The notes below the pieces were generated by a model, which worked only from the letters and a program-made list of their open reading frames with translations, did no database searches and was not told the origin of the DNA. From Chloroflexi bacterium TSY (GTDB taxonomy: Bacteria; Chloroflexota; Anaerolineae; Caldilineales; Caldilineaceae), in the NCBI GenBank assembly GCA_019217005.1, contig JAHBNG010000146.1:1-34807 (forward strand): a stretch of 34,807 bases of DNA. Reading direction: 5' to 3'. Of this stretch, positions 698-31,580 are shown piece by piece (the stretch's first letter is position 1; each line of letters begins with the position of its first letter). Made by a program: the position numbers and the translations under genes.

Positions 698-1759
698 TTA
701 AGACTGATACGCCTCTAGCGTCTGCTGGGCGATCTTGTCCCAAGCGAGCGATTGAGCATGGTGATAGGCTGCTTTGTTCAAAGCTGTCCGATTACAGTCG
801 CGAAAAATACGCAGGGCTTGTTCCAAACCGTCTGGTTGCTTTGGATTGTAGAGAATCCCGATTTCATCATTGACCAACTCCGGTAAACACCCAATGGCGG
901 GGACGATCACGGATCGACTAAAACCCATTGCTGTAATGGCCGAACCGGAGGTTAAAACATCCAGGAAGGGAAGCACGACAACGTCTGCGGCGTTGAGATA
1001 GATCTGCAAGTCAGTGTAGGGAATGTGAGCGGATGGCTGAAGAGCAATGCGTGGATCAACATTATCAAGCCGCTGAATCAACTGTTGACCGTAGTCTGTA
1101 TAATATTTGCCAGCAAATAACAGAGTCACGTCTGTATCTGATAGATTTCCAAAGGCATCAACGAGGTTTTCGATTCCTTTGTAAGGCCGAATGTTGCCAA
1201 AATAGAGGTAGATGAGATGATCATGTGGCAGAGCAAGCCGCGTCCGTGCGTCTGCCTGGCTGATTGTATTTGGATACGCATCGATGAAATTACCGTGGGG
1301 AATGACAAAGATATTCTCATTGCGGTAGAAGTGTTTTTTTACAAGTTGCTTCGCGTAGTCACAGTGAGTGATCACGACGGAGGCAATTTGCGCAATAGCC
1401 TGTCGTACGAGCCGATCTAGGTCGTGGCTTGTGCTTTCGTGGGGATAGAAGTTGTGCATTGTCCAGACGACTTTGTAGCCCAGTGCGCGTGCGTATGCCA
1501 AGAACTCGATAAACTCGGCGCAACGTTGTAAGCTACCATCTAAGTCGCCTGTATCATAATGATAGTGGGGCCAATTGAGATGCAGCACATCAACCTGTTC
1601 GGGATTGTCGCGCAGCCAATCCTTGTCCCATGGCTCCCCTCGATCACCTGGAATGACTTCGACGCCAACCCCTGCCATCGCTCGCTTCAACAAAGCCGCG
1701 TAGGGGTTATTTTGATGAATTTGGAAAGCATTCGGGTCCCAGTAGAATTTTGCGCGCAT
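698..1759 (-). CDS. Glycosyltransferase, GT-B fold, family 4-like
   Basis: A complete 353-residue protein, a usual length for a GT4-type enzyme. It carries a Rossmann-like donor domain in its second half: GNIRPYKGIENLVDAF (about residues 188-203) is the typical phosphate/sugar-nucleotide loop, and LPFLDVLTSGSAI followed by IVPAIGCLPELV resembles the C-terminal E/G-rich donor-binding region. The N-terminal acceptor domain has VDVLHLNWPHYH and VVWTMHNFYPHE. It would transfer a sugar from a nucleotide-sugar donor in the cytoplasm to a glycan or lipid acceptor; the specificity cannot be read. The ATG at 1757-1759 lies 65 bp from MITE-A copy 1, and no clear Shine-Dalgarno sequence is visible. The broken livF lies upstream, so this gene may have come under a new promoter when the locus was rearranged. 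Confidence 0.85.
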   Translation of the reverse strand: MRAKFYWDPNAFQIHQNNPYAALLKRAMAGVGVEVIPGDRGEPWDKDWLRDNPEQVDVLHLNWPHYHYDTGDLDGSLQRCAEFIEFLAYARALGYKVVWTMHNFYPHESTSHDLDRLVRQAIAQIASVVITHCDYAKQLVKKHFYRNENIFVIPHGNFIDAYPNTISQADARTRLALPHDHLIYLYFGNIRPYKGIENLVDAFGNLSDTDVTLLFAGKYYTDYGQQLIQRLDNVDPRIALQPSAHIPYTDLQIYLNAADVVVLPFLDVLTSGSAITAMGFSRSVIVPAIGCLPELVNDEIGILYNPKQPDGLEQALRIFRDCNRTALNKAAYHHAQSLAWDKIAQQTLEAYQS

Positions 1760-1823
1760 GAATTTTGGCGATTCTTGAGAAAGATTGATCCTAATTTAGA
1801 TGCTGAGAATTTTTTTATAGTCT

Positions 1824-2038
1824 CAGTAGATCCAAATTTGGCGTTTTTGGCTATTTTCAGTCGAGATTGCAGGGATTTTGGAGTCATTTATTCAGATTTC
1901 GGTTACAGAAAACAACCTATTTCATATCTGAAAATCGCCCAAATCTAACGCAAAAACTAGATATCGACCGGCAAATTTGTATTTATGTCAACTGTTTAGC
2001 CAGAATTCTCTCTCAAAACCTGAAATTTGGATCTACTG
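1824..2038. mobile_element. MITE-A copy 1 (215 bp, 5-bp TSD)
   Basis: A 215-bp element with terminal inverted repeats CAGTAGATCCAAATTT / AAATTTGGATCTACTG. It is flanked by the direct repeat AGTCT at 1819-1823 and 2039-2043. It holds no meaningful ORF. By eye it is identical to the copy at 10812-11026. It sits at the 3' end of livF and supplies that gene's present stop codon. Confidence 0.93.
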
Positions 2039-2684
2039 AGTCTGCCAGTTCGAGCGCCATCGTGGCATTCTGCTCAACCAGCAGAACTCCAACGCCTTCC
2101 TCTTTATTGATGCGTTCAACGATTTCGAAGATCTCCTCGACTAATTGTGGTGCCAGTCCCAAAGAGGGTTCATCCAACAGCATCAGCTTTGGGCGCGCCA
2201 TCAATGCTCGTCCGATGGCGCGCATCTGTTGTTCGCCGCCTGAGAGATAACCGGCCTTCACGGTACGCCGTTCAGCCAGTCGAGGAAAGTAAGTGAAAAT
2301 CCGTTCTAAATCTTCCGCAATGCCGTCCCGACGAGTATAAGCGCCGACCATCAAGTTATCTTCGGGTGTAAGATGCTCAAAGACGCGTCGGTCTTCCATG
2401 ACCTGTACCACACCGCTCCTGACAATATCAGCTGCGTCCTTATGGGCGAGCTGTTTGCCTTGAAACTCGATTTCCCCTTTGGTGACCTCGCCTCGTTCAC
2501 CATGAAGCAGCCCGGAGATAGCCTTCAGCGTCGTACTCTTTCCAGCTCCGTTTGCACCAAGCAGCGCCACGATTCCACCATCCGGCATAGAGAGCGAGAC
2601 TCCTTTTAGCACGAGAATTACGCGGTCATAGACAGCTTCAATATTGTTAACAACAAGACCTGTATTTGAATTTGAATTGGCCAT
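2013..2684 (-). pseudogene. livF: Branched-chain amino acid ABC transporter ATPase (LivF-type), C-terminus lost
   Basis: An ABC ATPase of the LivF type that would power uptake of branched-chain amino acids or amides together with LivG, LivH, LivM and the binding protein. Visible motifs are Walker A GANGAGKST, Q-loop QVMEDRRVFEHLTPEDNL, signature LSGGEQQ, Walker B LMLLDEP and switch His-like VLLVEQNA. The start is taken at the ATG at 2682-2684 (MANSN), because the further upstream ATG lies inside a degenerate repeat. The protein is normal until ELAD; then the frame enters MITE-A and stops at 2013. Removing the MITE and one TSD gives ELADY followed by KKILSI and a stop, not the usual YVLETGR... 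tail. So about 25-30 C-terminal residues are missing independently of the MITE, suggesting a deletion or rearrangement here. Confidence 0.88.
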
Positions 2685-2691
2685 TGCTGAT

Positions 2692-2898
2692 TGGTCTCTG
2701 GTCGTTGGCAATTAGTCGTTGGTGATTGGTGACCAGCCGATCGATGTCACGAAGTCGAGCTCGATATCGCAAGAGAATAGCGAGTGGAGATTCAACGATC
2801 AGGCTGGTTGCCTCAATCTTCAACTCTCTAATCTCCCAATCTCCAGGCCTTAACGCAATGACATTGACCAGCCACTAGCGACCAATCACCAGCAACCC
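2692..2898. repeat. Degenerate inverted short-unit repeats between binding protein gene and livF
   Basis: The left block (about 2692-2735) is built from variants of TTGGTGATTGGTGACCAG. The right block (about 2866-2898) is the inverted form, GACCAATCACCAGCAACC. Between them lies a second imperfect inverted pair (GGAGATT... / AATCTCC). The transcript could fold into a long hairpin directly 3' of the binding-protein gene. No gene is seen here. Confidence 0.6.
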
Positions 2899-2899
2899 T

Positions 2900-4246
2900 C
2901 TACTCTTCGTATAGTTCTGGATTTGCAGCCTTGAACGCTTCTGCTGATTCTTCGATCAGACCTTGGACAATATCTTCGTAGGCAATTGTCCAATCACCAA
3001 TGGGAACCATGCGTTCTCCATCGAACTCATGCATCTGGGCAAAAGGTGATCCCATGTGATCGGTGTCAGATGTGGTCAGGTCAGGTGGTACGAGACCCTC
3101 GAGTCCGGCTTCAACCAGCGTTTCAGGTGTGATATGCTCATAACCCCACACGACTTGCTCGCTGGTTACTGGATGACCAAATTCCTCACCCGCCAACCGA
3201 ATAGCGATGGCCGCCGCCGCCATGTTAAAGACACCACGGTTATAGAGCTGAGTTCCCACTTCTTCGCGTGGCCCATAGGCTTTTTCGGCGTCATGAACCT
3301 CCGTCAGCAAGGTTGAGATAATGGGACTGTCCGTCCCGGAACTAGCCCAATAATTGGCGCGTACAGCTTTCGCGATGTCAGGACCAGCCAGTTCGATGTC
3401 CTGATCAGTCGGTGACCAGGGACAGCCGATGATTTGTGGCATTGGATAACCAACGCGTGCCGCTTCTTGCAAGGAGACAACCGTTGACTGACCCCACATG
3501 CGCAGGATCACCCAATCTGGCTGGCTGCGTTCCGCAATATCGGTCCAGACAGCTGTCTGCTCCAGGCCCGGCCACTCGACTGGGAAGGTTTGCAGTTCAA
3601 AACCAAGTTGCTCAGCCAAGACTTCCATCAGCGGCAGTGTCTCACGTCCATAGTCGATATCAGCGTAGACCATCGCAATCTTCTTCCCTGCTAATGCCTC
3701 CTCCCCACCTTCTTGTTCAGCGATGAACGCAGTCGTTGCTGCCTCAACGGTCCAGTAGGTTGGGGAGAGGAGGAAGTTATAGGGAAATGCCTCGCCAAAA
3801 GCTGCCGCCGAGATACCATAACCTGTGTGCAGAATCGGCATTTTGTCTTCAAAGGCACGCGGTGTTACAGCATAAGTTGTACCAGTGCTGAAGGGGATAA
3901 AGGTGACCATATTGCCCTCAGTCTTGCCTCGTTCATAGGCTTCCACACCCCGAGGCGTTTCGTAGCCTGTTTCGACTTCCAGCACTTTGACTGGCCAGCC
4001 GTCAATACCGCCCTGATCATTGATATAGGTGGCCATATCTTGGATTCCATTGCCCAACGGAGTACCGGTATGTTGGTAGCTACCAGTGCGATATCCAGCA
4101 AGAGTGACAATGTATGGCTCTTTGGGCGCGTCCGCATCGGTGGCGGAGTCACTGCCACCAGTTGATCCGGCTGGAGTAGTTGGCGCACATGCCGCCAGTA
4201 TGAGCATGGCACAGAGCAGGAGCGATAGAGTAAAGTGTCTCTTCAT
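2900..4246 (-). CDS. ABC transporter substrate-binding lipoprotein, branched-chain amino acid type
   Basis: A 448-residue extracytoplasmic solute-binding protein of the LivJ/LivK (Peripla_BP_6) type. Residues 1-20 form a lipoprotein signal: KR, a hydrophobic stretch, and the lipobox LAAC, with the Cys as lipid anchor. A low-complexity Ser/Gly/Asp linker follows. The mature part begins IVTLAGYRTGSYQHTG and shows DMATYINDQGGIDG, a type I periplasmic-binding signature. The length is slightly above the usual 370-420. It would deliver ligand to LivH/LivM at the membrane; the ligand cannot be inferred, since paralogues bind leucine, amides or aromatics. It lies between the Rpn-family gene and livF, with an inverted repeat block directly 3' of its stop. 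It looks intact. Confidence 0.9.
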   Translation of the reverse strand: MKRHFTLSLLLCAMLILAACAPTTPAGSTGGSDSATDADAPKEPYIVTLAGYRTGSYQHTGTPLGNGIQDMATYINDQGGIDGWPVKVLEVETGYETPRGVEAYERGKTEGNMVTFIPFSTGTTYAVTPRAFEDKMPILHTGYGISAAAFGEAFPYNFLLSPTYWTVEAATTAFIAEQEGGEEALAGKKIAMVYADIDYGRETLPLMEVLAEQLGFELQTFPVEWPGLEQTAVWTDIAERSQPDWVILRMWGQSTVVSLQEAARVGYPMPQIIGCPWSPTDQDIELAGPDIAKAVRANYWASSGTDSPIISTLLTEVHDAEKAYGPREEVGTQLYNRGVFNMAAAAIAIRLAGEEFGHPVTSEQVVWGYEHITPETLVEAGLEGLVPPDLTTSDTDHMGSPFAQMHEFDGERMVPIGDWTIAYEDIVQGLIEESAEAFKAANPELYEE

Positions 4247-4321: not shown

Positions 4322-5571
4322 CTAGTTTTTGGACGCGGCTGGTGGATCCGCATTTCCATCTTCCTGAGAATCATCATTGACATATTGCTTTGGGGTAGCC
4401 CTGGCTTCATTCACGTGATCTGCTTTTTCAGATTGAGCCAAGATATCTTTGATTGCCATGATAGATAGACCCGTTACATCAGCAATGACAGAAATATCAT
4501 AGCTGCGTTCATGCATGACGCGTACGATTTGCCGATTTCGAAGATCAATACCTTCTTCACGGCCTTCTTCGCGGCCTTCTCTGTGACCTTCTTCGCGGCC
4601 TTCTTCGCGGCTTTTGGCACGGACTTTTTCTTTTTCTCGTTCGATGGCTGTCAATAGCATGCTCTGAACCTCCTCTTTATCGCGAATCACCTGCGCTAGC
4701 GAACCATATTCCTCTTCATCCACACGACCATGAAGAGCCAACTGCTTGAACCAATTTAGAAAAAAGATAGACGGCCTCTCGATCCGACTCTTTGTCATAG
4801 AGGGTCAGCAAAACCTCTTCCAACAATTCCACATGATAGTGCGCCTCTGCGATGAAAAGTGCTGAAATAATGTTGCGGATGCCCAGCAGTTGGCTCAATG
4901 AGAACTCATTCTCGATAATCTTGAGATACTCAAAGTCCAACCGATGCTGACCCAGAGGCGGATACGCTTCAATCAACTCTGCGATGTTTGTCGGTGCCGT
5001 CCACTGATTATCGCCATTATACAACACAATGGGCAAAATGGCAGGTAGCTTCGCAACCTCTTTCTTGGCCGTACCGTGGGTCAGCAGATAATCCATGTAG
5101 AAACCAGTCAGATAGTGCAGTACTCGCACAGCCATGAAGCGCTACACCGTGGATTGAAACTCGACCAGAATGTGGGGTGGTTCAAAATTAGGTTTACACT
5201 TTTGATATATAGACAAAGATCTATATGAGACCGTTTTCTCTCTGAGAACCGGCGAAATCAGAGAATATAAACGTTCTTTCTGTTTCTAAAAGTGTAAACC
5301 TATCTATCCAGCTAAAATGAACCACCCCCAGAATGTAGAAGTAAACCTCGTGTTGGGTCCCATCTGCTCGAATCAGAGGAACACCATAGATGATGTCACT
5401 CTCTGTCTCTTTATAGTGTTCAGAGATGAAGGATTTATCTAAGCGAATGGCCTCGTCAAAATCCAGTTCTTGCACCCAGTCCTCTTCGACAAAGGTCTCG
5501 ATCAGTTGCCGAAAGATGGTCTTGTTGCTGAAGAGCCGTTTATACCCGCTATCATGAACAGTATGTGCCAT
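4322..5571 (-). pseudogene. Rpn-family PD-(D/E)XK nuclease/transposase-like protein, disrupted
   Basis: Rpn-family proteins (recombination-promoting nuclease, PDDEXK) are recognised here by MAHTVHDSGYKRLFSN at the start, LDKSFISEHYKETESDIIYGV, LPAILPIVLYNGD in the middle, and the tail EREKEKVRAKSREEGREEG with several REEG units. Three lesions are visible. MITE-B (5174-5328) with an 8-bp TSD interrupts the codons after YFYIL; removing it rejoins VYFYIL to VEFQSTV. Next, TAG follows VEFQSTV, where a sense codon is expected before RFMAVRVL. Last, a run of six T near 4755-4765 shifts the frame between EAVYLF and NWFKQLALHGR. The gene lies between livM and the binding-protein gene, an odd place, and may itself be an intruder in the operon. 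The poly-T shift could be a sequencing error; the MITE is not. Confidence 0.87.
5174..5328. mobile_element. MITE-B copy 1 (155 bp, 8-bp TSD)
   Basis: A 155-bp element with ends GGGGTGGTTCA / TGAACCACCCC and a second inner inverted pair, AGGTTTACACTTTT / AAAAGTGTAAACCT. It is flanked by CAGAATGT at 5166-5173 and 5329-5336. It has the same length as the copy at 12236-12390, which lies in the opposite orientation and is clearly diverged in its centre. It has no coding capacity. Ends beginning GG and an 8-bp TSD would fit mobilisation by an ISL3- or IS256-like transposase; this is an inference. Confidence 0.93.
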
Positions 5572-5677
5572 CGTTTGTGACCGAACTTCCCACTTCAACG
5601 TTTTAGGAATGAGAATGAATCGACTTTCAACACAATTTGTTGGAGTGTACCGCTTTCTGGTTCCAAATGCCAACGAC

Positions 5678-6764
5678 CTAGTACGAAAAGGGCCACAAAC
5701 GAAAATAATCTTTGATATTGTCCCATAATTTAGCAAGGCCGAGTGGTTCTGTAATCAGAAAGATGATGACCAACGCCCCAAAGATGATCGATTCAACGCC
5801 TGCCGTAATACCACTGCTCACATAGAATCCAGCAGCATCACCCAAAAACGTCAGAAACTGATTGAGGAAGATGGGCAACAGAAGAATAAAAGCCACACCA
5901 AGAAAACTGCCGAGAATGCTACCCAACCCGCCTATAATCACCATTGCCAAAAGCTCAATTGAGAGATTGAGTCCAAATTCTAAAACGTGGGCCACGCCGA
6001 AGTAAAAGAAGATGAGCAATGCCCCAGAAATTCCAGCGTAGAATGAACTAATGGTAAAGGCCAACAATTTGTAGTAGGTGATGTTGAAGCCCAAAATAGT
6101 GGCCGCCACATCGTGATCGCGGACGGCAATCCAGGCCCGACCAACCCGACTACGCATTAAATTCATCGCCAGAATCGTGAGAATAATTAAAAAAATAAGG
6201 GCGACAAAATAACGTTCAGTATAGGACTGAATGCGAAAACCAAAGATGTATGTCGCAGGCGGAAAGAGCGTATCTCCACCCACAGCCCCCAGACCAGTTG
6301 GCAACAAAAGAGGCGTTAATCGACTAATGACCCAAGGTAGGGCAAATTGGGCAGCCAAGGTTGCCATCGCGAGATAAAGGCCCTTGATGCGGGCGGATGG
6401 GATGCCAAAGAGCAGACCGACCAGTGCCGCCATAATGCCGCCACAGAGTACGCTCAATAAGAAGGGCACGTCCCGCATATAAATGAGCGTCGCTGTGGTA
6501 CCCACCAACGGCCATAAATGCGCCATGCCCCAGCGAGATTTGACCACACGAACCGGCCAACAGATTGAGACCAATCACGGCAATCGAAAAGAGTAAAAAT
6601 GGAAGAATGATGGCTGAGAACCAATATTCTGTGGCGATGAATGGAACGATCGCAATTGCCAATACGAGGATCGCGCTGATCGCCCAACGAGCGAGCGGCA
6701 CGCGAAAGAAGGCCATATCACCCTGATAAGTCGTCTCATAAACACCACATTCTCTGTTGATCAT
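5678..6764 (-). pseudogene. livM: Branched-chain amino acid ABC transporter permease LivM, frameshifted
   Basis: LivM-type membrane permease with multiple transmembrane helices. The N-terminal part (6764 to about 6503) reads to SCGQISLGHGAFMAVGGY, the family's hallmark GQ.SLGHGAF motif. The frame then changes and TTATLIYMRDVPFL continues to the natural end DYFRLWPFSY. Other family landmarks are the EAA-like loop GRAWIAVRDHDVAATILGFN and ELLAMVIIGGLGSILGSFLG. The shift lies near 6500 (around GGTGGGTACCACAGC) and looks like a 2-base loss or 1-base gain. Joined, the protein is about 360 residues. It pairs with LivH as the transmembrane channel. The frameshift may be real decay or a base-calling error. 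A hairpin repeat fills the gap to livH. Confidence 0.88.
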
Positions 6765-6786
6765 AAAGTCTTAACCTTATTCACAA

Positions 6787-6848
6787 TCAGTAGGCCGCAA
6801 TCGTGTCATTCTCGAGCGAAGCGAAGAATCTAACGATTGCGGCCTACT
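6787..6848. repeat. REP-like palindromic repeat, copy 1
   Basis: A perfect 17-bp stem, CAGTAGGCCGCAATCGT / ACGATTGCGGCCTACTG, encloses a core containing GTCATTCTCGAGCGAAGCGA and AGAATCTA. The same core occurs, inverted, at 16898-16949 with a different outer stem. It lies between livH and livM. Confidence 0.85.
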
Positions 6849-7770: not shown

Positions 7771-7849
7771 GAGTGTGTCCCAAAGTGTGTAAATGCAGCG
7801 TTTCTCTGACTGAACAACGTTCATTTGCACACTTTGTGGTACACACTCT
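7771..7849. repeat. Foldback repeat between fadD remnant and livH
   Basis: Imperfect arms GAGTGTGTCCCAAAGTGTGT (from 7771, continuing AAATG) and CATTTGCACACTTTGTGGT (from 7822, continuing ACACACTC) can form a stem of about 26 bp with small bulges and a 24-nt loop. It could be a MITE or an mRNA hairpin in the intercistronic gap; no TSD is evident. Confidence 0.65.
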
Positions 7850-7928
7850 GTTTATTCGAAAAGTTCTGTGACGATCTATTCTTGCTTGAGAAATTAGTTG
7901 GACCCACAATCACTTTTCGGATAGGGTT

Positions 7929-8390
7929 TTAACCGCTCACATTATCAATTCGCAGCATCCGCTCCAATTCAGTGGTGCGACCATCTTCATAGGTGATGAG
8001 TGCATTCACGACGACTTCATCCTGTTTCATGTAGAGTGCTTCTTTAATATTGGCATATTTTTCGGCAATGAAACCACGGCGCACCTTGCGCGTCCTTGTG
8101 ACCTCTTCATCATCAGGGTCCAACTCTTTGTGGAGGACGAGAAAACGCTTGATTTGTAGTTCGGGCGAGAGGCTTGCATTGACTCGTTTAATTTCATCCT
8201 GCATCAAAGCGTAGACCTCGTTCTTCTGTGCCAAATCAATATAGCCGCCATAGGGGATGCGCCGCCGTTCGGCCCAATTCGAAACAATGTCCATATCGAT
8301 GTTGATCATTGCCGTGACAAACGATTCATTGTCGCCCAAGGCCACAACCTCTTTGATATAGGGACTAAACTTCAGCTTATTCTCAATATA
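7929..8390 (-). pseudogene. Long-chain acyl-CoA synthetase (AMP-forming), C-terminal remnant
   Basis: Only the C-terminal domain of an AMP-forming acyl-CoA ligase is left. The open frame begins at the IS edge (YIENKLKFSPYIKEVV...) and includes the family's late motifs: FSPYIKEVVALGDNESFVTAM, SPELQIKRFLVL and the lysine-containing RTRKVRRGFIAEKYA. About 500 N-terminal residues, including the AMP-binding motif, are absent. The sequence on the far side of the IS (9881 onward) is not the missing part. Liv operons that carry a ligase between livG and livH are common in Chloroflexota and other phyla, so this fragment marks the original upstream half of the operon. No start codon with a ribosome site remains, so it is probably not expressed as a functional enzyme. 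Confidence 0.85.
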
Positions 8391-9880
8391 CTTTACTTTC
8401 TGGTAAAAGAAAAGAGATGAGGTGAGAAATGTGACAAAAAGCGGTTAGCAGTTCATCCTAAAGGTAGAGAACCCAAAAAGGAGGAAGGAATGCTAACCGC
8501 GCCAGAAATAACTATAGCAGTACTGATGAATGTATTGCAAGTAACGCCGATGGGAACAAACGTAAATGTAATGCGTCTGATGTGGGCAATGCTGAATGGG
8601 TCGTTTCTGAAAAGTCGAGGAGCAATCCATAGCGCATTGAAAGAAAGCGGGTTTGAAGATGAGGAGCTCCGGCGAAGCTGGTGGAGCTTCGATATGGATC
8701 ATGGGATATCACAAGTCTGCTGGGGTCGTGGCAAGAAGAAGTGGAAAGGGAATGGGAGGCAAAAAAGTTAGAAGGGTACCGAGTGAAAAGCATAGATATC
8801 ACAGGGTTCTGGCGACCGAAGCTGCAAGGGAAAGTGAACCGACTCTATAACTCAACGGCTCGTCGGCATTGCCCGCGCTCATCTTTGGAGTGATGATAAG
8901 CTCGGGGAGATAGGCGGGAAGCGAGTGCCACTGCTCAAGGCAATCATGAGATGCACGGTTGGAACAAAGGAAAGTGAGTTTCGGAAAAGCTGCTGAAAGA
9001 GACGAAGAAATCACTGGAGTCAGACGAAGTGGCGGTGGTCGATGCCGGGTTTACAATCAGAGAAATGCTAGAAAGCGGCATAGACCGATTTGTCCTGCGG
9101 GAAGCCATTAACTGCACAGTGCGCCGCAATGAGTTCCCCAAACGCAAAGAAAAGGCAGACCACCTGAATATGGTGATATTGTGCGTCCGCTCTCGCAGCT
9201 ATAAGGAAAGCGACTCGAGGCTACAACTCCGGACTCGTCTGGTCGCTTTTCTATAGTGGTCGCCTGATTTGCTATCAAGCATGGCACAATCTCGTCCCCA
9301 GAACAACCAAGGTGGATACAGCCAACCGTACCTACTCGATTTACGTCATTCAGGATCCGGCCTACAACACACCTTTGGTTTTGGCGACCGTTATGACTTT
9401 GCAGCCTGAAACCATTTATCTTGTCTACCTGGAACGCTGGCCTGTTGAACATCCCCCCCTTGGCTTCCAAGCAGATGATTGGCTTACATCGTCAATTTGT
9501 TCATGCCGATGAGGCTTGTTTCCGCTTACCTGAACTGGGGCTGCTTGCTGGCAATCTTCTTTCCCATTTAGCCGCTTCTCTTCCTCCCATACCGACTGGC
9601 TACTGGGATCGAGAGCCTCAATCCACTCCCGGCAGGCTGCGCCGTGTTCTCTCGAGTGCTCTTTTTCCAACTCCTGACCAACTCGACCCTGACTTTCGGA
9701 AAAAGGCCTCGGTTTCACACCATTTCCCTAAAGGCGTTCTCGCTCATCGCCGCCTCAATGCCGCTGCTTAAACTAGCCGAGCACTATTTTTACATTTTAT
9801 CCCGTTTTTTCAGGGTGGATTCTTTTTTCCGCCCCTTTCGGTTTGCCCTTTGTCACTCAAGCCTTTACCAGAAAGTAAAG
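8391..9880. mobile_element. 1.5-kb DDE insertion sequence, copy 1 (no TSD)
   Basis: Ends CTTTACTTTCTGGTAAA / TTTACCAGAAAGTAAAG, 1490 bp. The flanks (ATATA left, AACAA right) do not match, and the two sides belong to unrelated genes, unlike copy 3. It is nearly identical to the copies at 20749-22237 and 25698-27199; most differences are single-base changes in homopolymer runs. Confidence 0.93.
8490..9771 (+). pseudogene. DDE transposase of the 1.5-kb IS, copy 1 (several frameshifts)
   Basis: The reading begins at ATG 8490 after a strong Shine-Dalgarno (AAGGAGG). The start MLTAPEITIAVLM and the tryptophan codon missing from copy 3 are intact here. The frame is then broken several times, for example after WWSF and in G, A and C runs, so the rest is scattered over frames until the common end AHRRLNAAA. 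Comparing copies suggests a DDE enzyme with D in SIDITGF, D in VVDAGF and E in YLERWPVE. The family is not recognised; the YLERW..E pattern fits the IS4-like superfamily. This copy cannot make full-length transposase as written. Confidence 0.85.
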
Positions 9881-10006: not shown

Positions 10007-10811
10007 GGAAAACCTGTTTTGTAGATACATACCTGCTATCCACCAAAGGACTGTTGATGCTCCTTGCTACGAAACTATTTGCACCAACGCTACGGGCTGA
10101 CTTGATTGTTCGCCCTCATCTACTCAATCAGCTAAACATGGGTCTAGATCTCGTTTTGACGCTTGTATCTGCACCAGCTGGCTTTGGCAAAACGACCCTC
10201 ATTCGCGCTTGGTTGGCCGAACAGAAATGCCCCCTTTGGGTGGCTCTCGCTGGATGAATCCGATAATGATCCCACGATCTTCTTCACCTATTTCACGGCT
10301 GCTCTCCAACAGATCGATTCGCAACTTGGTGCTTCGATAGACAACTGGAGCCAACCGACTACATCATTGATGCAACTCTGCAATGACATAATGGCGAGCG
10401 GTATGAACATGATTTTGGTGCTAGATGACTATCATCACATCGACTCGATGCCGATTCATAAAACATTAGAATTTCTGATTGAGCATGCTCCTCCCAACCT
10501 TCATCTCGTGCTAATCAGTCGTACCGATCCTCCCTTGCCTTTGGCGCGGCTGCGCGTACGGGCACAAATGACAGAAATTCGCGCGGATGCCCTGCGCTTC
10601 ACACAAGACGAAGCGGTACAATTCTTTACCAATACGATGTCGTTAACTTTGTCTTCGGCAGAGGTAAGGCGGTTAGAAGAACGGACTGAAGGGTGGGTGG
10701 CTGGATTGCAGATGGCAGGAGTTGCTCTACAGGGGAGCAACCCGGAAGTGACCAGGGACCCGCGCGAGTTCATTCAGAATTTTTCCGGCAGTCATCGTTA
10801 CATCTCAGACT

Positions 10812-11026
10812 CAGTAGATCCAAATTTGGCGTTTTTGGCTATTTTCAGTCGAGATTGCAGGGATTTTGGAGTCATTTATTCAGATTTCGGTTACAGAAAA
10901 CAACCTATTTCATATCTGAAAATCGCCCAAATCTAACGCAAAAACTAGATATCGACCGGCAAATTTGTATTTATGTCAACTGTTTAGCCAGAATTCTCTC
11001 TCAAAACCTGAAATTTGGATCTACTG
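10812..11026. mobile_element. MITE-A copy 2 (215 bp, 5-bp TSD)
   Basis: The sequence is identical by eye to copy 1 at 1824-2038 and reads in the same direction on the plus strand. TSD AGACT lies at 10807-10811 and 11027-11031, the reverse complement of the AGTCT duplicated at copy 1. It splits the LuxR gene between its ATPase and helical-repeat parts. Confidence 0.95.
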
Positions 11027-12235
11027 AGACTATCTGATGGACGAGGTATTGGACCAGCAGCCGGAAGAGATGTACGATTTCTTGGTCAAGACATCGTTCC
11101 TCGAGCGAATGTGTGCACCACTTATCGAGGCGACGATCCCCGATTTCGACCGCGCCAAAGCACAGTTGATCCTGGAGCAGCTTGATGCAACGAACCTGTT
11201 CATTGTTCCTCTAGATAGTGAACGCCACTGGTATCGCTATCATCATTTATTTGCCCAATTGTTGCGACGGCGTTTCCAGAAGACATATGCGAAAAGCGCG
11301 ACCGGCTACCATCAGCGTGCCAGTCAATGGTATGTCGACCATAATCTCGTGATCGATGCCGTTAATCATGCTCTTCGCGGGAAACACTTTGAGTTTGCGG
11401 CAAATCTTATTCACAAGATATGGGTCGGTAGAGGTCATCAATCAGTTTCTCAACAGCAGATATTCGCTTGGTTGCGTACCCTACCCGTTGAGATCATTCA
11501 TCATCAGCCACGACTAGCGTTCCATTATGTTACTGCACAATATCGCCGCAATCCTCAGAATCGTTCGATTGAGGCATTGATCTCACAAATCACAGAGGCG
11601 GGACAAACCGATGAGCAACAGAGCGACTTCTTGGTGCTCATGAAAACGGTTTGGCTTCAATTCGCTACCTGGCAAGGAGATCATGCGCAGTGCAGCAGAT
11701 TGATAGCGGAAACTAGCTTTGAGGGAGCCAACATACGGCCAATGACACAATGTTTCTTTCTGCGAACATGCGCTCTATTCTATCTAGAAAATGAGGGTAA
11801 CCTGAATCAGGCAGAAGCAGTACAGACAGAGGCGCTAAACATTGGAAGCTCATCGGGACATAGCATCGTATCTGTCGGGAACGCTTCACGACTGGGCGAT
11901 ATCTCTATGCAGCAGGGAAAGCTACGTCAAGCAGAGTTACATTATCGCGCCGCAATGGATGCTTCATCCCAGACAGATGTAGCAGACCGTACATATCAGT
12001 ATCAACCACTGCTGGGTCTGGCACAACTCGCCTATCGACAACAGCGATTAGACAAGGCTCTCTCCTATGCCGAGCAAGTCCATCGTCTACCGATCTATGC
12101 CGAAACTGACATTACTTATCCTGAATTCCGCCTTCATTTGGCCGCTATACTTGCAACGATTCATATTGCCAACCAAACGCCAGAGAATGCATTCTCCTTT
12201 ATTCATGACATCAGTCATTTTGCTTTATCCCATCC

Positions 12236-12390
12236 GGGGTGGTTCATTTTAGGCGGACAATTAGGTTTACATTTTTGCAAAGAGAAAAGATGTTTATATT
12301 TTCTAATTTGAGCCATGCTCAGGCAGAAAATGACCTCATATAGATTTTTGTCTATGTATCAAAAGTGTAAACCTAATTCTGAACCACCCC
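12236..12390. mobile_element. MITE-B copy 2 (155 bp, 8-bp TSD)
   Basis: Ends GGGGTGGTTCA / TGAACCACCCC, flanked by TCCCATCC at 12228-12235 and 12391-12398. It aligns over its full length with the reverse complement of 5174-5328, with many substitutions in the centre. It separates the helical repeats of the LuxR gene from its HTH domain. Confidence 0.95.
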
Positions 12391-13173
12391 TCCCATCCGA
12401 GCGCTTATCATCAGCGATTGGGTGCAATGACAGAGGCACGGCTTTGGTTGGCACTTGGCGACATGACAATGGTTGCCCCGTGGGCAGAAAAGAGTACGCA
12501 GTATACATTGGACCCATTCCGTCTCTTGTTTGCTCAGGAACAGTTGATTTTGGCCTATTATGAACTACTGGCCCAGCGCGTGCAGGAAGCAAATCACCGG
12601 CTTGCCTCACTACTACCTGTGGTGGAAGCAGCAGGGTGGAATGAGCTGCTGATGGAAGCCTTGGTCTTACAAGCTCTTGTCTGTCAGGCGAGTACCGATA
12701 TTGAGATGGCCCTTCACGCATTGCAGCGCACCCTACTGTTGGCCAAGCCAGAAGGCTATATCGCTATCTTTGTGAACAAAGGTGAACCAATAGCTGAGTT
12801 GCTACGGCGCATGAGCCATCACGATACAGCCACCGATTATATTCCCAATTTGCTAAGGGCTTTTGATGACATTACCAATTCTAACACAAGTAATGCAACT
12901 CAGATCGCTCCTTCACCGCCTCATCTTGTCGAGCCGTTGAGCAATCGTGAGCTAGAAGTACTTTCTCTGCTTGCTCAAGGACTGACCAACCGGGAACTCG
13001 CCCAACACCTGTCTATTGCCTCTAGCACTGTGGAGCGTCACCTTGCCAATATCTACGGCAAACTCCAAGTCAACAATCGCACTCATGCCGTTTCTCGCGC
13101 CCGCACCTTAAATCTCCTTACGTAGATCAACCTTACGCAGATATTTCCCACAGAAACACATACAGGCTCAAGC

Positions 13174-16755: not shown

Positions 16756-16897
16756 GTACGGTGCTCACTACAACTGATTTGCGTTGGGCACAGGCAACGA
16801 CGCCATCCACTCTGGCGGGACAACTTGGACCCGCTTCTTATTCAACGCGGCCTTTAACCCCTCTCTCTCTTCTCTTGCTGCCCTTTTTTTCAGGGCA

Positions 16898-16949
16898 GAC
16901 AGCAATCGTTAGATTCTTCGCTCCACTCGAGAATGACACGATTGCTGTC
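16898..16949. repeat. REP-like palindromic repeat, copy 2
   Basis: Arms GACAGCAATCGT / ACGATTGCTGTC around the same core as 6787-6848, inverted. The outer stem differs from copy 1 in both arms. A short hairpin, CTGCCC / GGGCAG with a T-rich loop, precedes it at about 16878-16897. Confidence 0.82.
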
Positions 16950-16969
16950 TATTGATAGTCAAAATACAT

Positions 16970-17203: not shown

Positions 17204-17235
17204 TATCCAATGGATATTGGTTACGGCAAGCTTAG

Positions 17236-18845
17236 TACTACTGTGCATCAAGTAAAGGCTCGATAATGTTCGATTTTTGCACAAGATAATGCGAGCGTTT
17301 AGCGGAAGCAAGACGACGTTGCTTGTAGCGAAGGCGCTCGATAGTCTCAGCGAGTGTCAAGACAGGTTTAGGCAGAACGGCATGGAGAAGTTCAACAACC
17401 TGTGGCAAAGTGAGAGCGGGGGCATCATATTTGAGGAAAAACTGAGAACGAGCCAAGAAACCAAAGGCCAAAATGACTAAGGTCATATGATGATGCCAAC
17501 CGAGCCAACTGCGAGTTTCATATTCGTTGAGTCCGAGAAACTGCTTGGCTTGTTCAAAAATGGTTTCAATGGGCCAACGCAAAGCAGAAACAGTGGCGAA
17601 GTCATCCAAGGAAGTCTCAAGGGGTGCATTGGAGAGAAAGTATTGCAGAGAGCAATCGGGATTGCGGCGGACGATGAGCCAGAGAGCAGAACCGGGGAGC
17701 CCATTGCGGACAGAGACAATGCGGCGACAAGCAATGGAAGCAACGATGAAGCCCTTGGAGCCCTCTTTGAGAACATGCTGTTGCCACTCATGCTCCTGGA
17801 AGGTGTCAGCGAGTTGAGCAACGGTGAGAGGCGTAGGTTCACCAGGCCGGACGCGGAGCTTGGAAGCTTTGCGCCCGCATCCAGATGATGCGGGCAGATA
17901 GGTCTGGGGGCTGGAGGTCCAGACACGAGTCTCTTTGGGCACTTCAGCAAAGTAGCTGTAAGCGGTTTGGCCATCAATGCAGTCAAGCAGATGAGTATCT
18001 TTGCCAAAGGCTTCATCCATAGTGATCCAGCGGATGGGCAACGCACCCAGGGCGTGCGTCTGCTCAATCATGGACCAAGCCAATTCATTTTTTGTTTGGA
18101 AGGTCAGGTCAGTGGGAAGACCGGTTTTGTACCGCTTCTCTGCATACTCATCACTAAACCATTCTTGGGGGATATACAACCGACAGTTCAGTAAGGTATA
18201 GCCATGAGAGCTATTATATCCCAGGAAGACTCCGGCTTGACAGTTGGCGATCTTGCCCAGTTCGCCACACCGCTGCCGCTTGACGCCCACTGACTCTTCT
18301 CCTTGCTTGGGAATGTCGCTCCCATCCAGGAGTAAGACGCCATTTGCGTCTCCCAACAACTCACCTGTCTGTCGAGTATGTTCCGCCAGCATCGCTTCAC
18401 CGCTCCAGCGGCTCTGACCCACAAAGCTTTGCAGGGGGCGTACACCCGATTCTCCTACTGTCGCCAGCGCGATGTTCTCGGCCGATTTGCGTTTGATTTC
18501 GGGGTCTAACAAGCCTCGCATGTAGTGGTACGCATGCTCTCTGAGCCACATGGCTGAAGTATGGACTATATATGGCATGATACTCCTGGAGTTGGTCGGC
18601 CAGTGCCGCCAGTTGCTCTTCTGTCAGTTCCAGCAGCGGCGGGCTTTCCAGTTGGCTGTAGTCATATTGATTGACTGCTTGAGCAAGTTTCATCTTGATT
18701 TCCTTTCATCGAAGACTGCTTCATTTTATTGGCTCTTCAGTCTATCTCATTTTTCCTTTGCATTCTGTTTGCGTTTTGTTAGCAATATGCCCAGAAATAT
18801 AACGAATTTCCTTTGTGTTTCACAATATATTGCTGCACAGTAGTA
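17236..18845. mobile_element. IS701-family insertion sequence with TTAG target duplication
   Basis: Ends TACTACTGTGCATCAA (17236) and TTGCTGCACAGTAGTA (to 18845) are inverted repeats with one mismatch. TTAG flanks both sides (17232-17235, 18846-18849), matching the YTAR target known for IS701. The length is 1610 bp. Confidence 0.9.
17238..18693 (-). pseudogene. IS701-family transposase, one frameshift
   Basis: The DDE transposase is read in two frames. The first starts at ATG 18691-18693 (MKLAQAVNQYDY) and runs to YHAIYSPYFSHVAQR; the second continues EHAYHYMRGLLDPEIKRKSAENIAL to the end LLDAQ, whose TAG stop lies in the terminal repeat. The catalytic residues are likely D in VLLLDGSDIPKQG, D in ITMDEAFGKD and E in LRWPIETIFEQAKQFLGL. 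The shift falls at an AGAGAG repeat near 18543 and looks like a 2-base loss. The joined length, about 480 residues, is normal for this family. If the shift is real, this copy is inactive unless frameshifting occurs. Confidence 0.88.
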
Positions 18846-18903
18846 TTAGGCGCAAATAAGTAGATCCAATTTTTCGCAACGATTAACTCAGGAGAGATCA
18901 ACT

Positions 18904-20748: not shown

Positions 20749-22237
20749 CTTTACTTTCTGGTAAAGGCTTGAGTGACAAAGGGCAAACCGAAAGGGGCGG
20801 AAAAAAGAATCCACCCTGAAAAAACGGGATAAAATGTAAAAATAGTGCTCGGCTAGTTTAAGCAGCGGCATTGAGGCGGCGATGAGCGAGAACGCCTTTA
20901 GGGAAATGGTGTGAAACCGAGGCCTTTTTCCGAAAGTCAGGGTCGAGTTGGTCAGGAGTTGGAAAAAGAGCACTCGAGAGAACACGGCGCAGCCTGCCGG
21001 GAGTGGAGGCTCTCGATCCCAGTAGCCAGTCGGTATGGGAGGAAGAGAAGCGGCTAAATGGGAAAGAAGATTGCCAGCCAGCAGCCCCAGTTCAGGTAAG
21101 CGGAAACAAGCCTCATCGGCATGAACAAATTGACGATGTAAGCCAATCATCTGCTTGGAAGCCAAGGGGGGAGGTTCAACAGGCCAGCGTTCCAGGTAGA
21201 CAAGATAAATGGTTTCAGGCTGCAAAGTCATAACGGTCGCCAAAACCAAAGGTGTGTTGTAGGCCGGATCCTGAATGACGTAAATCGAGTAGGTACGGTT
21301 GGCTGTATCCACCTTGGTTGTTCTGGGGACGAGATTGTGCCATGCTTGATAGCAAATCAGGCGACCACTATAGAGAAAGCGACCAGACGAGTCCGGAGTT
21401 GTAGCCTCGAGTCGCTTTCCTTATAGCTGCGAGAGCGGTCGCACAATATCACCATATTCAGGTGGTCTGCCTTTTTCTTTGCGTTTGGGGAACTCATTGC
21501 GGCGCACTGTGCAGTTAATGGCTTCCCGCAGGACAAATCGGTCTATGCCGCTTTCTAGCATTTCTCTGATTGTAAACCCGGCATCGACCACCGCCACTTC
21601 GTCTGACTCCAGTGATTTCTTCGTCTCTGTCAGCAGCTTTTTCCGAAACTCACTTTCCTTTGTTCCAACCGTGCATCTCATGATTGCCTTGAGCAGTGGC
21701 ACTCGCTTCCCGCCTATCCCCCGAGCTTATCATCACTCCAAAGATGAGCGCGGGCAATGCCCGACGAGCCGTTGAGTTATAGAGTCGGTTCACTTTCCCT
21801 TGCAGCTTCGGTCGCCAGAACCCTGTGATATCTATGCTTTTCACTCGGTACCCTTCTAACTTTTTTGCCTCCCATTCCCTTTCCACTCCACTTCTTCTTG
21901 CCACGACCCCAGCAGACTTGTGATATCCCATGATCCATATCGAAAGCTCCACCAGCTTCGCCGGAGCTCCTCATCTTCAAACCCGCTTTCTTTCAATGCG
22001 CTATGGATTGCTCCTCGACTTTTCAGAAACGACCCATTCAGCATTGCCCACATCAGACGCATTACATTTACGTTTGTTCCCATCGGCGTTACTTGCAATA
22101 CATTCATCAGTACTGCTATAGTTATTTCTGGCGCGGTTAGCATTCCTTCCTCCTTTTTGGGTTCTCTACCTTTTGGATGAACTGCTAACCGCTTTTTGTC
22201 ACATTTCTCATCTCTTTTCTTTTACCAGAAAGTAAAG
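20749..22237. mobile_element. 1.5-kb DDE insertion sequence, copy 2 (inverted)
   Basis: The same ends as copy 1, 1489 bp, in the opposite orientation. Target copies at 20744-20748 (TTTGA) and 22238-22242 (TTGGA) differ at one base. Relative to copy 3 it has a 4-base deletion near the downstream transposase part (GAGAGCCTCCACTCC). Confidence 0.92.
20858..22143 (-). pseudogene. DDE transposase of the 1.5-kb IS, copy 2 (frameshifted)
   Basis: Starts MLTAPEITIAVLM at 22143 and reads to about WWSFRYGSWDITSL before the frame breaks; the later part includes KKLLTETKKSLESDEVAVVDAG and a clean end segment from VDTANRTYSIYVIQ. The tryptophan codon mutated in copy 3 is intact. The 4-base deletion near GYWDREP shifts the last third. 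As in the other copies, the upstream frame ends RPLSQL and stops where the downstream frame takes over. Confidence 0.85.
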
Positions 22238-25697: not shown

Positions 25698-27199
25698 CTT
25701 TACTTTCTGGTAAAAGAAAAGAGATGAGGTGAGAAATGTGACAAAAAGCGGTTAGCAGTTCATCCTAAAGGTAGAGAACCCAAAAAGGAGGAAGGAATGC
25801 TAACCGCGCCAGAAATAACTATAGCAGTACTGATGAATGTATTGCAAGTAACGCCGATGGGAACAAACGTAAATGTAATGCGTCTGATGTAGGCAATGCT
25901 GAATGGGTCGTTTCTGAAAAGTCGAGGAGCAATCCATAGCGCATTGAAAGAAAGCGGGTTTGAAGATGAGGAGCTCCGGCGAAGCTGGTGGAGCTTTCGA
26001 TATGGATCATGGGATATCACAAGTCTGCTGGGGTCGTGGCAAGAAGAAGTGGAGTGGAAAGGGGAATGGGAGGCAAAAAAGTTAGAAGGGTACCGAGTGA
26101 AAAGCATAGATATCACAGGGTTCTGGCGACCGAAGCTGCAAGGGAAAGTGAACCGACTCTATAACTCAACGGCTCGTCGGGCATTGCCCGCGCTCATCTT
26201 TGGAGTGATGATAAGCTCGGGGGAGATAGGCGGGAAGCGAGTGCCACTGCTCAAGGCAATCATGAGATGCACGGTTGGAACAAAGGAAAGTGAGTTTCGG
26301 AAAAAGCTGCTGAAAGAGACGAAGAAATCACTGGAGTCAGACGAAGTGGCGGTGGTCGATGCCGGGTTTACAATCAGAGAAATGCTAGAAAGCGGCATAG
26401 ACCGATTTGTCCTGCGGGAAGCCATTAACTGCACAGTGCGCCGCAATGAGTTCCCCAAACGCAAAGAAAAAGGCAGACCACCTGAATATGGTGATATTGT
26501 GCGTCCGCTCTCGCAGCTATAAGGGAAAGCGACTCGAGGCTACAACTCCGGACTCGTCTGGTCGCTTTCTCTATAGTGGTCGCCTGATTTGCTATCAAGC
26601 ATGGCACAATCTCGTCCCCAGAACAACCAAGGTGGATACAGCCAACCGTACCTACTCGATTTACGTCATTCAGGATCCGGCCTACAACACACCTTTGGTT
26701 TTGGCGACCGTTATGACTTTGCAGCCTGAAACCATTTATCTTGTCTACCTGGAACGCTGGCCTGTTGAACCTCCCCCCTTGGCTTCCAAGCAGATGATTG
26801 GCTTACATCGTCAATTTGTTCATGCCGATGAGGCTTGTTTCCGCTTACCTGAACTGGGGCTGCTTGCTGGCAATCTTCTTTCCCATTTAGCCGCTTCTCT
26901 TCCTCCCATACCGACTGGCTACTGGGATCGAGAGCCTCAATCCACTCCCGGCAGGCTGCGCCGTGTTCTCTCGAGTGCTCTTTTTCCAACTCCTGACCAA
27001 CTCGACCCTGACTTTCGGAAAAAGGCCTCGGTTTCACACCATTTCCCTAAAGGCGTTCTCGCTCATCGCCGCCTCAATGCCGCTGCTTAAACTAGCCGAG
27101 CACTATTTTTACATTTTATCCCGTTTTTTCAGGGTGGATTCTTTTTTCCGCCCCTTTCGGTTTGCCCTTTGTCACTCAAGCCTTTACCAGAAAGTAAAG
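25698..27199. mobile_element. 1.5-kb DDE insertion sequence, copy 3 (reference copy, 5-bp TSD)
   Basis: Ends CTTTACTTTCTGGTAAA / TTTACCAGAAAGTAAAG, 1502 bp, with perfect TSD AATAT at 25693-25697 and 27200-27204. It is the longest and least damaged of the three copies. It does not match an IS family that I can name from its ends. Confidence 0.95.
25797..27090 (+). pseudogene. DDE transposase of the 1.5-kb IS, copy 3 (nonsense codon and frame change)
   Basis: The start ATG 25797 follows AAGGAGG. A TAG at 25890 replaces the TGG found in copies 1 and 2 (RLMWAML). The frame then runs open to 26522, covering SIDITGFWRPKLQGK (first catalytic D), VVDAGFTIREMLESG (second D) and EFPKRKEKGRPPEYGD, and stops at RPLSQL. 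The +1 frame then continues from SRSYKGKRLEAT through YLERWPVEPPPLASKQM (catalytic E) to AHRRLNAAA. The split at CTCTCGCAGCTATAA is present in all three copies, so it may belong to the element's design. The joined length is about 430 residues. Confidence 0.87.
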
Positions 27200-29746: not shown

Positions 29747-29998
29747 GGTTGATATCTCCAATTATGTGTGGTAACGTGTTTTGGCAATTTCTCCAATATG
29801 ATCGTATCATATTTAATTCATTCGGGCAATCCCGTCTTCCCCTAGGCATTTATTTCTCCCCGGGGACGATTGTTCGAAGGTTGAATGATGTGGCGATTAA
29901 AACCTATCCGAAAAGTAATTGTGAGTTCAGTCAGATACTCGAGCGAAAATGAAGCATCACAGAACTTTTCGGATAAACACTTAACCGAAAGAGAGAAC

Positions 29999-31570: not shown

Positions 31571-31580
31571 AATCTGAGAT

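Follow-up and report, generated by a model that had tools for sequence, protein, structure and literature searches.

A MalT-like regulator gene in four pieces

The stretch of DNA analyzed here (the window) comprises 34,807 nucleotides of a contig from Chloroflexi bacterium TSY (GCA_019217005.1, JAHBNG010000146.1). It contains a gene for a LuxR-type regulator that is broken by two short elements, MITE-A and MITE-B, each lying between two copies of a target duplication, and by a change of reading frame in a run of C residues. The features of this gene are as follows, with the basis of each assignment in parentheses.

10057..13125, + strand: MalT-like LuxR-type regulator, a pseudogene in four reading-frame pieces (NCBIfam, Pfam, homologue P0001)
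10230..10234, + strand: C run with reading-frame change (adjacent parts of P0001 matched before and after it)
10807..10811, + strand: target duplication AGACT, left side of MITE-A (sequence)
10812..11026, + strand: MITE-A copy 2, 215 bp, ends CAGTAGATCCAAATTT (inverted-repeat ends, common to the longer elements L156, L149, and L157)
11027..11031, + strand: target duplication AGACT, right side of MITE-A (sequence)
12228..12235, + strand: target duplication TCCCATCC, left side of MITE-B (sequence)
12236..12390, + strand: MITE-B copy 2, 155 bp, ends GGGGTGGTTCA (inverted-repeat ends, duplication, folding)
12391..12398, + strand: target duplication TCCCATCC, right side of MITE-B (sequence)

Three of the pieces aligned to consecutive parts of the NCBIfam MalT model NF003420 (52-233, 257-640, and 661-896 of 903), Pfam placed TPR_MalT and then GerE along the pieces, and a P-loop motif was visible in the sequence. 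The gene thus has the domain order of MalT-like LuxR regulators (P-loop, MalT-type TPR region, GerE), from which it differs by being broken. We call it MalT-like, and not MalT itself, because the scores of the pieces (155, 87, and 78 bits), like the 412 bits of P0001, lie below the NCBIfam cut-off of 537. When the regulator was read through with an X at every break and used as a query, 7992 of the 7998 proteins scored were found at an E value of 0.001 or better. The top homologue, P0001, is an uninterrupted protein of 896 amino acids that covers the full query at 57% identity and to which all four pieces align; those ranking after it show 36-38% identity over the full query or at most 47% over half of it. 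Searching with the regulator protein brought up no DNA of a close relative among genome contigs (16 pattern matches, 0 relatives) or viral contigs (none), and no Rfam match to an intron was obtained.

Both insertion junctions rejoin the regulator

At the MITE-A junction, the upstream frame aligned without gaps to P0001 through D251 and the downstream frame resumed at residue 254. At the MITE-B junction, the upstream frame ran gap-free to H652 and the downstream frame resumed at residue 651; the alignment after MITE-B has 8 gap positions, all of them in the linker preceding the DNA-binding domain and none at the junction itself. By a simple reckoning, flanks would match by chance at about 1/1024 for 5 bp and about 1/65536 for 8 bp. 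Junction A corresponds to exactly 8 residues in every one of the 120 homologues listed (of 7992), and junction B, where P0001 has 8 residues, to between 1 and 11 residues in the same 120.

The first-pass annotation had read the locus as one MalT-like regulator carrying two unrelated MITEs with readable duplications, a reading that the uninterrupted P0001 and the exact coordinates bear out, and the junction peptides that it had rejoined agree with P0001 and with the 120 listed homologues. The third lesion that it had proposed, a frameshift in a C run near 10230, was likewise recovered: the frame upstream of the run corresponds to P0001 residues 1 to approximately 58 and the frame downstream to P0001 from residue 59, so that adjacent parts of the homologue are matched on either side. 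The homologue supports a frame change at this point, although an error of sequencing or of assembly may have produced it. It had also been claimed that the ancestral sequence can be rebuilt from the window itself, which holds for the two junctions and fails for the frame change, readable only with the help of outside homologues.

Open frames of 257 and 424 amino acids extend into the MITEs, as they might if the two segments were normal or lineage-specific coding sequence of the regulator and not insertions. We regard this as exceedingly improbable, since the 120 listed homologues are all continuous at junction A and none (0/120) has a MITE-sized insert at junction B, since both segments are repeated elsewhere in the window, outside the regulator, and since element plus duplication amounts to 220 and 163 nucleotides, both of which shift the frame. 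The frames encoded by the MITEs had no match at an E value of 0.01 or better among the 120 listed homologues, and a check that the annotation had suggested, for homologues coding either segment as normal sequence, found none in that set; the reading is rejected for these 120, out of 7992.

The two MITEs and other elements in the window

Each MITE has a further copy in the window, which also holds several longer insertion sequences, as follows.

1824..2038, + strand: MITE-A copy 1, flanks AGTCT at 1819-1823 and 2039-2043 (repeat comparison)
5174..5328, - strand: MITE-B copy 1, inverted, 82% like copy 2, flanks CAGAATGT at 5166-5173 and 5329-5336
8391..9880, + strand: 1.5-kb insertion sequence copy, 176 bp upstream of the regulator start codon (repeat comparison)
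8391-9880, 20749-22223, and 25698-27199: three nearly identical copies of the 1.5-kb element, ends CTTTACTTTCTGGTAAA
15442-16755: IS110-family transposase gene
17232-18849: IS701-family element, TTAG on both sides

MITEs in general are short and lack a transposase gene. Both elements found here have terminal inverted repeats and a target duplication and are multicopy (two copies each in the window), and at 215 and 155 bp they are too short for a transposase gene; no such frame is present. All four complete copies (4/4) have perfect target duplications, of 5 bp for MITE-A and 8 bp for MITE-B. MITE-B folds far more strongly than its shuffled versions (z of -7.3), and the folding of MITE-A is weaker by the same measure (z of -2.9).

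Recent mobility of both families had been proposed at first reading. For MITE-A, the proposal appears well supported, because copies 1 and 2 are identical (215/215 bases) and their duplications are intact. Recent movement of MITE-B seems less well supported: its window copies are only 82% alike, so that the argument comes from intact duplications and from a host gene that has decayed little.

MITE-A copy 1 lies where a livF-like frame terminates prematurely, and the DNA on its opposite side is unrelated and has no such frame. We compared the best seven livF loci, one per genome. Six of them contain a VEQN motif, to which no match was found in the seventh (L228), and in these six the protein continues for at least 33 residues past the point at which the MITE stands in the window. 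Three causes would each account for this arrangement: an older truncation, recombination between two MITE copies in which the intervening DNA was lost, and a chimeric assembly.

The last of these raises a broader concern, namely, that the segments are assembly artefacts in which identical repeats joined unrelated reads, as the identity of the MITE-A copies over 215 bases and the linking of a livF-like frame to unrelated DNA by copy 1 might lead one to suspect. For MITE-A copy 2 and MITE-B copy 2, however, the DNA on either side comes from one and the same gene, which resumes at the right residue, and the duplications match perfectly; we judge an artefact to be very unlikely and retain genuine insertion as the explanation.

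Among the longer elements, the 1.5-kb element is weakly IS701-like (27 and 20 bits against a cut-off of 170), its gene is split into frames, and a 5-bp duplication (AATAT) was seen by eye in the third copy only. The copy at 8391-9880 is possibly a further lesion, upstream of the regulator. As sources of either MITE, the IS701-family element and the 1.5-kb element were rejected because their ends differ, and IS110 was rejected because no matching ends were seen. Two further inverted repeat pairs are present in the window (6780-6845 with 16897-16962 and 7849-7929 with 29899-29979), and the repeat copy at 16897 is a hairpin in itself.

MITE-A-like elements and their targets in the class

Judged by the substrate-binding protein encoded at 2900-4246, the closest match in the genome collection searched is G001, a Chloroflexi metagenome-assembled genome, with 84% identity in its best segment. 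Chloroflexota are also represented among the named protein hits, one of which is Chloroflexi bacterium TSY, and on this evidence the host is most probably an uncultured member of the phylum. We sampled 396 genomes of the class of G001, drawn from a larger group. An end pattern that included AGWCT, AGWCTCAGTAGATCCAA, occurred in 24 of the 396, some with a single match, whereas the reversed control occurred in 1 of the 396. Identical 5-bp flanks were found in 22 of 33 end pairs taken from the window and from fetched loci, a sample that had been picked by the AGWCT pattern.

Because this manner of picking biased the 33-pair sample, we scanned for the ends alone, with no target pattern, in 1.6 Mb of G010 (G010:C1 1-1600000, L246-L325), a genome picked for its many AGWCT-pattern matches. 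The scan gave 41 pairs, of which 37 were counted; the 4 omitted are longer than 500 bp and have more than two end mismatches, and none of them has identical flanks. Thirty-one of the 37 counted pairs (31/41 if the omitted pairs are included) were bounded by identical 5-bp flanks, of 16 kinds, and in 0 of these 31 did the identity persist when a sixth base was added outward at each end. All but one of the counted pairs (36/37) measured 90-103 bp, and the reversed control gave 0 pairs up to 400 bp. Among the 31 targets, A is the first base in 31, T the last in 29, G or T the second in 30, A or T the third in 27, and C the fourth in 19; the full A[GT][AT]CT is present in 15 and AGWCT in 7. The window targets AGTCT and AGACT agree with this preference.

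The lengths of the MITE-A-like elements in G010 peak at 91 bp (16/37) and 97 bp (8/37). At another locus (L173, 1755-1780), two MITE-A ends abut back to back and form a 26-bp palindrome, which is flanked by AGACT and AGTCT.

BLAST with the whole of MITE-A found nothing in 25 genomes of the order of G001 (0/25, a search run without a positive control) and one weak internal match in the 396 class genomes, with at most two candidates scored per genome. Neither MITE had a match among plasmids in a distant BLAST search. The MITE-A end patterns were seen in 4 and 3 stretches of viral contigs, all of them single unpaired ends that we regard as chance.

A probable ISH3-like parent of MITE-A

Three longer elements with MITE-A ends were found in the same bacterial class. 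Two of them, L156 (1292 bp) and L149 (1287 bp), are intact, and each encodes one protein of 407 amino acids with the Pfam domain DDE_Tnp_1; the two proteins are 48% identical. Both match the NCBIfam ISH3 model over positions 2 to 298 of 298, with E values of 3e-48 and 1e-51, at scores of 164 and 176 bits that fall below the cut-off of 225, and we therefore call them ISH3-like and not ISH3. The third, L157 (1643 bp), retains remains of an ISH3-like gene at both ends with a nested element between them, as judged by eye from its translated ends against L156. Its flanks are AGTCT on both sides, and those of L156 (AGTCT/AGACT) and L149 (AGACT/AGTAT) are in neither case identical. Within L157, an rve-type element is apparently nested in the ISH3-like element at 1574-3216 (a weak match, E of 0.014).

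The transposase of L149 had 2077 homologues at an E value of 0.001 or better among 7999 scored, and tblastn with that of L156 reached 74 plasmid records, many of the 20 listed being annotated as ISH3. The ten commonest genera in the latter search (56/74 records) are haloarchaea or cyanobacteria. A blind scan for ends and duplications in five plasmid ISH3-type elements resolved two, from Tolypothrix and Trichormus, and yielded nothing for the other three. Both resolved elements have perfect ends, CAGTAGACC(T/G)AAAAGT, and 5-bp duplications; for the Trichormus element there was also a second, weaker candidate.

The ISH3 insertion sequences of haloarchaea and cyanobacteria are among the known systems closest to MITE-A: in the two cyanobacterial elements the ends CAGTAGA.CC.AA and 5-bp duplications are like those of MITE-A, and the DDE transposase of the group is also that of the longer relatives of MITE-A. 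Duplications of 5 bp are given for ISH3B, ISH3C, and ISH3D in the part of a published account available to us (PMC10264941). MITE-A differs in having no gene and a length of only 215 bp, and the targets differ as well, being AAATT and ACATT for the two cyanobacterial elements, whereas the relatives of MITE-A in G010 favor targets with A first and T last, most often A[GT][AT]CT (15/31).

Mobilization of MITE-A by some non-ISH3 transposase family would be in keeping with the facts that only its ends, and not its interior, match L156, L149, and L157, that these longer elements come from other genomes, none having been seen in that of the host, and that their transposase scores are under the NCBIfam cut-off. 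We nevertheless think it quite unlikely, given that the ends of MITE-A also bound three longer elements bearing ISH3-like transposase genes or their remains and that two cyanobacterial ISH3 elements share both ends and duplication length with MITE-A. Most likely, to judge from these shared ends, MITE-A is a nonautonomous derivative of an ISH3-like transposon.

MITE-B is a separate family with 8-bp duplications

MITE-B is a family separate from MITE-A and makes 8-bp duplications. A PF04754 (YhgA-like) gene at 4716-5736 is interrupted by its copy 1, and the two halves align to the profile, which has 203 positions, at 2-66 and 85-148. In the class sample, a MITE-B-like end pattern was present in 6 of the 396 genomes, and one of these, G355, has 26 sites that match the MITE-B ends within 3 mismatches, against 0 for the reversed control. 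Identical 8-bp flanks were found in 11 of 21 MITE-B pairs (2 from the window and the rest from G355 and G032); of the other 10, 2 are off by one base. The end pattern was found in 0 viral contigs, and BLAST with MITE-B, also run without a positive control, gave 0 of the 25 genomes of the order of G001.

Lone MITE-B-like ends, with one mismatch each, occur in the window at 31576 and 34789, the latter running off the window. In G001, MITE-B-like elements lie in short intergenic spacers at two loci (L215, 3217-3373, and L216, up to 3339), which we take to be those between rplL and rplJ and between dnaK and dnaJ.

A search of seven draft genomes for IS256- and IS1595-type transposase genes bounded by MITE-B ends found none. 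PF00872 (IS256) was present in 2 of the 7 genomes, at 5 loci where end-like matches, at 2 mismatches, are at most scattered and do not bracket the gene. PF12762 (IS1595) was present in 3 of the 7, at 3 loci: L243 has two right-type MITE-B end matches with 1 mismatch each and no left-type partner, L244 has matches here and there with 2 mismatches, and its own ends are different, and L245 has one match with 2 mismatches.

Inactivation of the regulator and its age

We conclude that the regulator has very probably been inactivated by two insertions of nonautonomous transposable elements and a change of frame. MITE-A would have been moved in trans by an ISH3-like transposase, leaving its 5-bp duplication, and MITE-B by a transposase that makes 8-bp duplications. 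Whichever lesion came first would have silenced the regulator, and there would then have been almost no selection against those that followed; the sequence does not record in what order the three arose. The occurrence of two insertions in one gene seems unsurprising, since the window is rich in elements (three 1.5-kb copies, IS701, and IS110) and a dead gene is not under selection.

Little time appears to have passed since the gene was lost. The pieces contain 0 stop codons in approximately 910 codons (one short overlap counted twice), and as 321 single-base changes would each have made a stop, zero stops implies at most about 2.8% neutral change since inactivation, a rough figure that assumes equal rates. 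Together with the identity of the MITE-A copies, this limit supports recency.

The same lack of stops, with the C-terminal frame that carries an intact GerE, could instead mean that the gene is not dead and that pieces of it, such as the DNA-binding part from about 12418, are still made. This we consider unlikely: promoter-like sites in 10700-12600 number 2 against 3.1 expected from shuffles, neither of them reads from MITE-B into the downstream piece, and the P-loop part has been severed by the frame change and MITE-A. Inactivation is therefore the reading that we prefer.

Significance

Prokaryotic MITEs have been named before, and in the portions of the two accounts available, ISH2 is termed a MITE that the ISH8 transposase mobilizes in trans (PMC10264941) and MITEAba12 is another example (PMC6382973). 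Like MITE-A and MITE-B, these elements are short and have no transposase gene; they differ in their end sequences, and the window has two unrelated families in one gene. According to the available part of one survey, the ISH3 transposase family is present in fewer than nine phyla and mostly in archaea (PMC9208149). The literature searched (titles and abstract openings, a partial coverage) contained no ISH3 MITE in Chloroflexota.

We put forward tentatively, and with slightly more doubt than conviction, the proposal that the class carries an undescribed group of ISH3-like transposons with MITE families of its own and a target of approximately A[GT][AT]CT, one such MITE having recently broken the regulator and perhaps having removed the end of livF by recombination between MITEs.

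The disruption of a gene is in itself ordinary, and what is noteworthy here is a little-described family of ISH3-like MITEs together with its probable parent transposon. The regulator offers, within one gene, two naturally occurring insertions whose junctions can still be read, the short repeats of an uncultured bacterial group are tied to the ISH3 transposase family, and the G010 sample yields a target preference that is directly testable.
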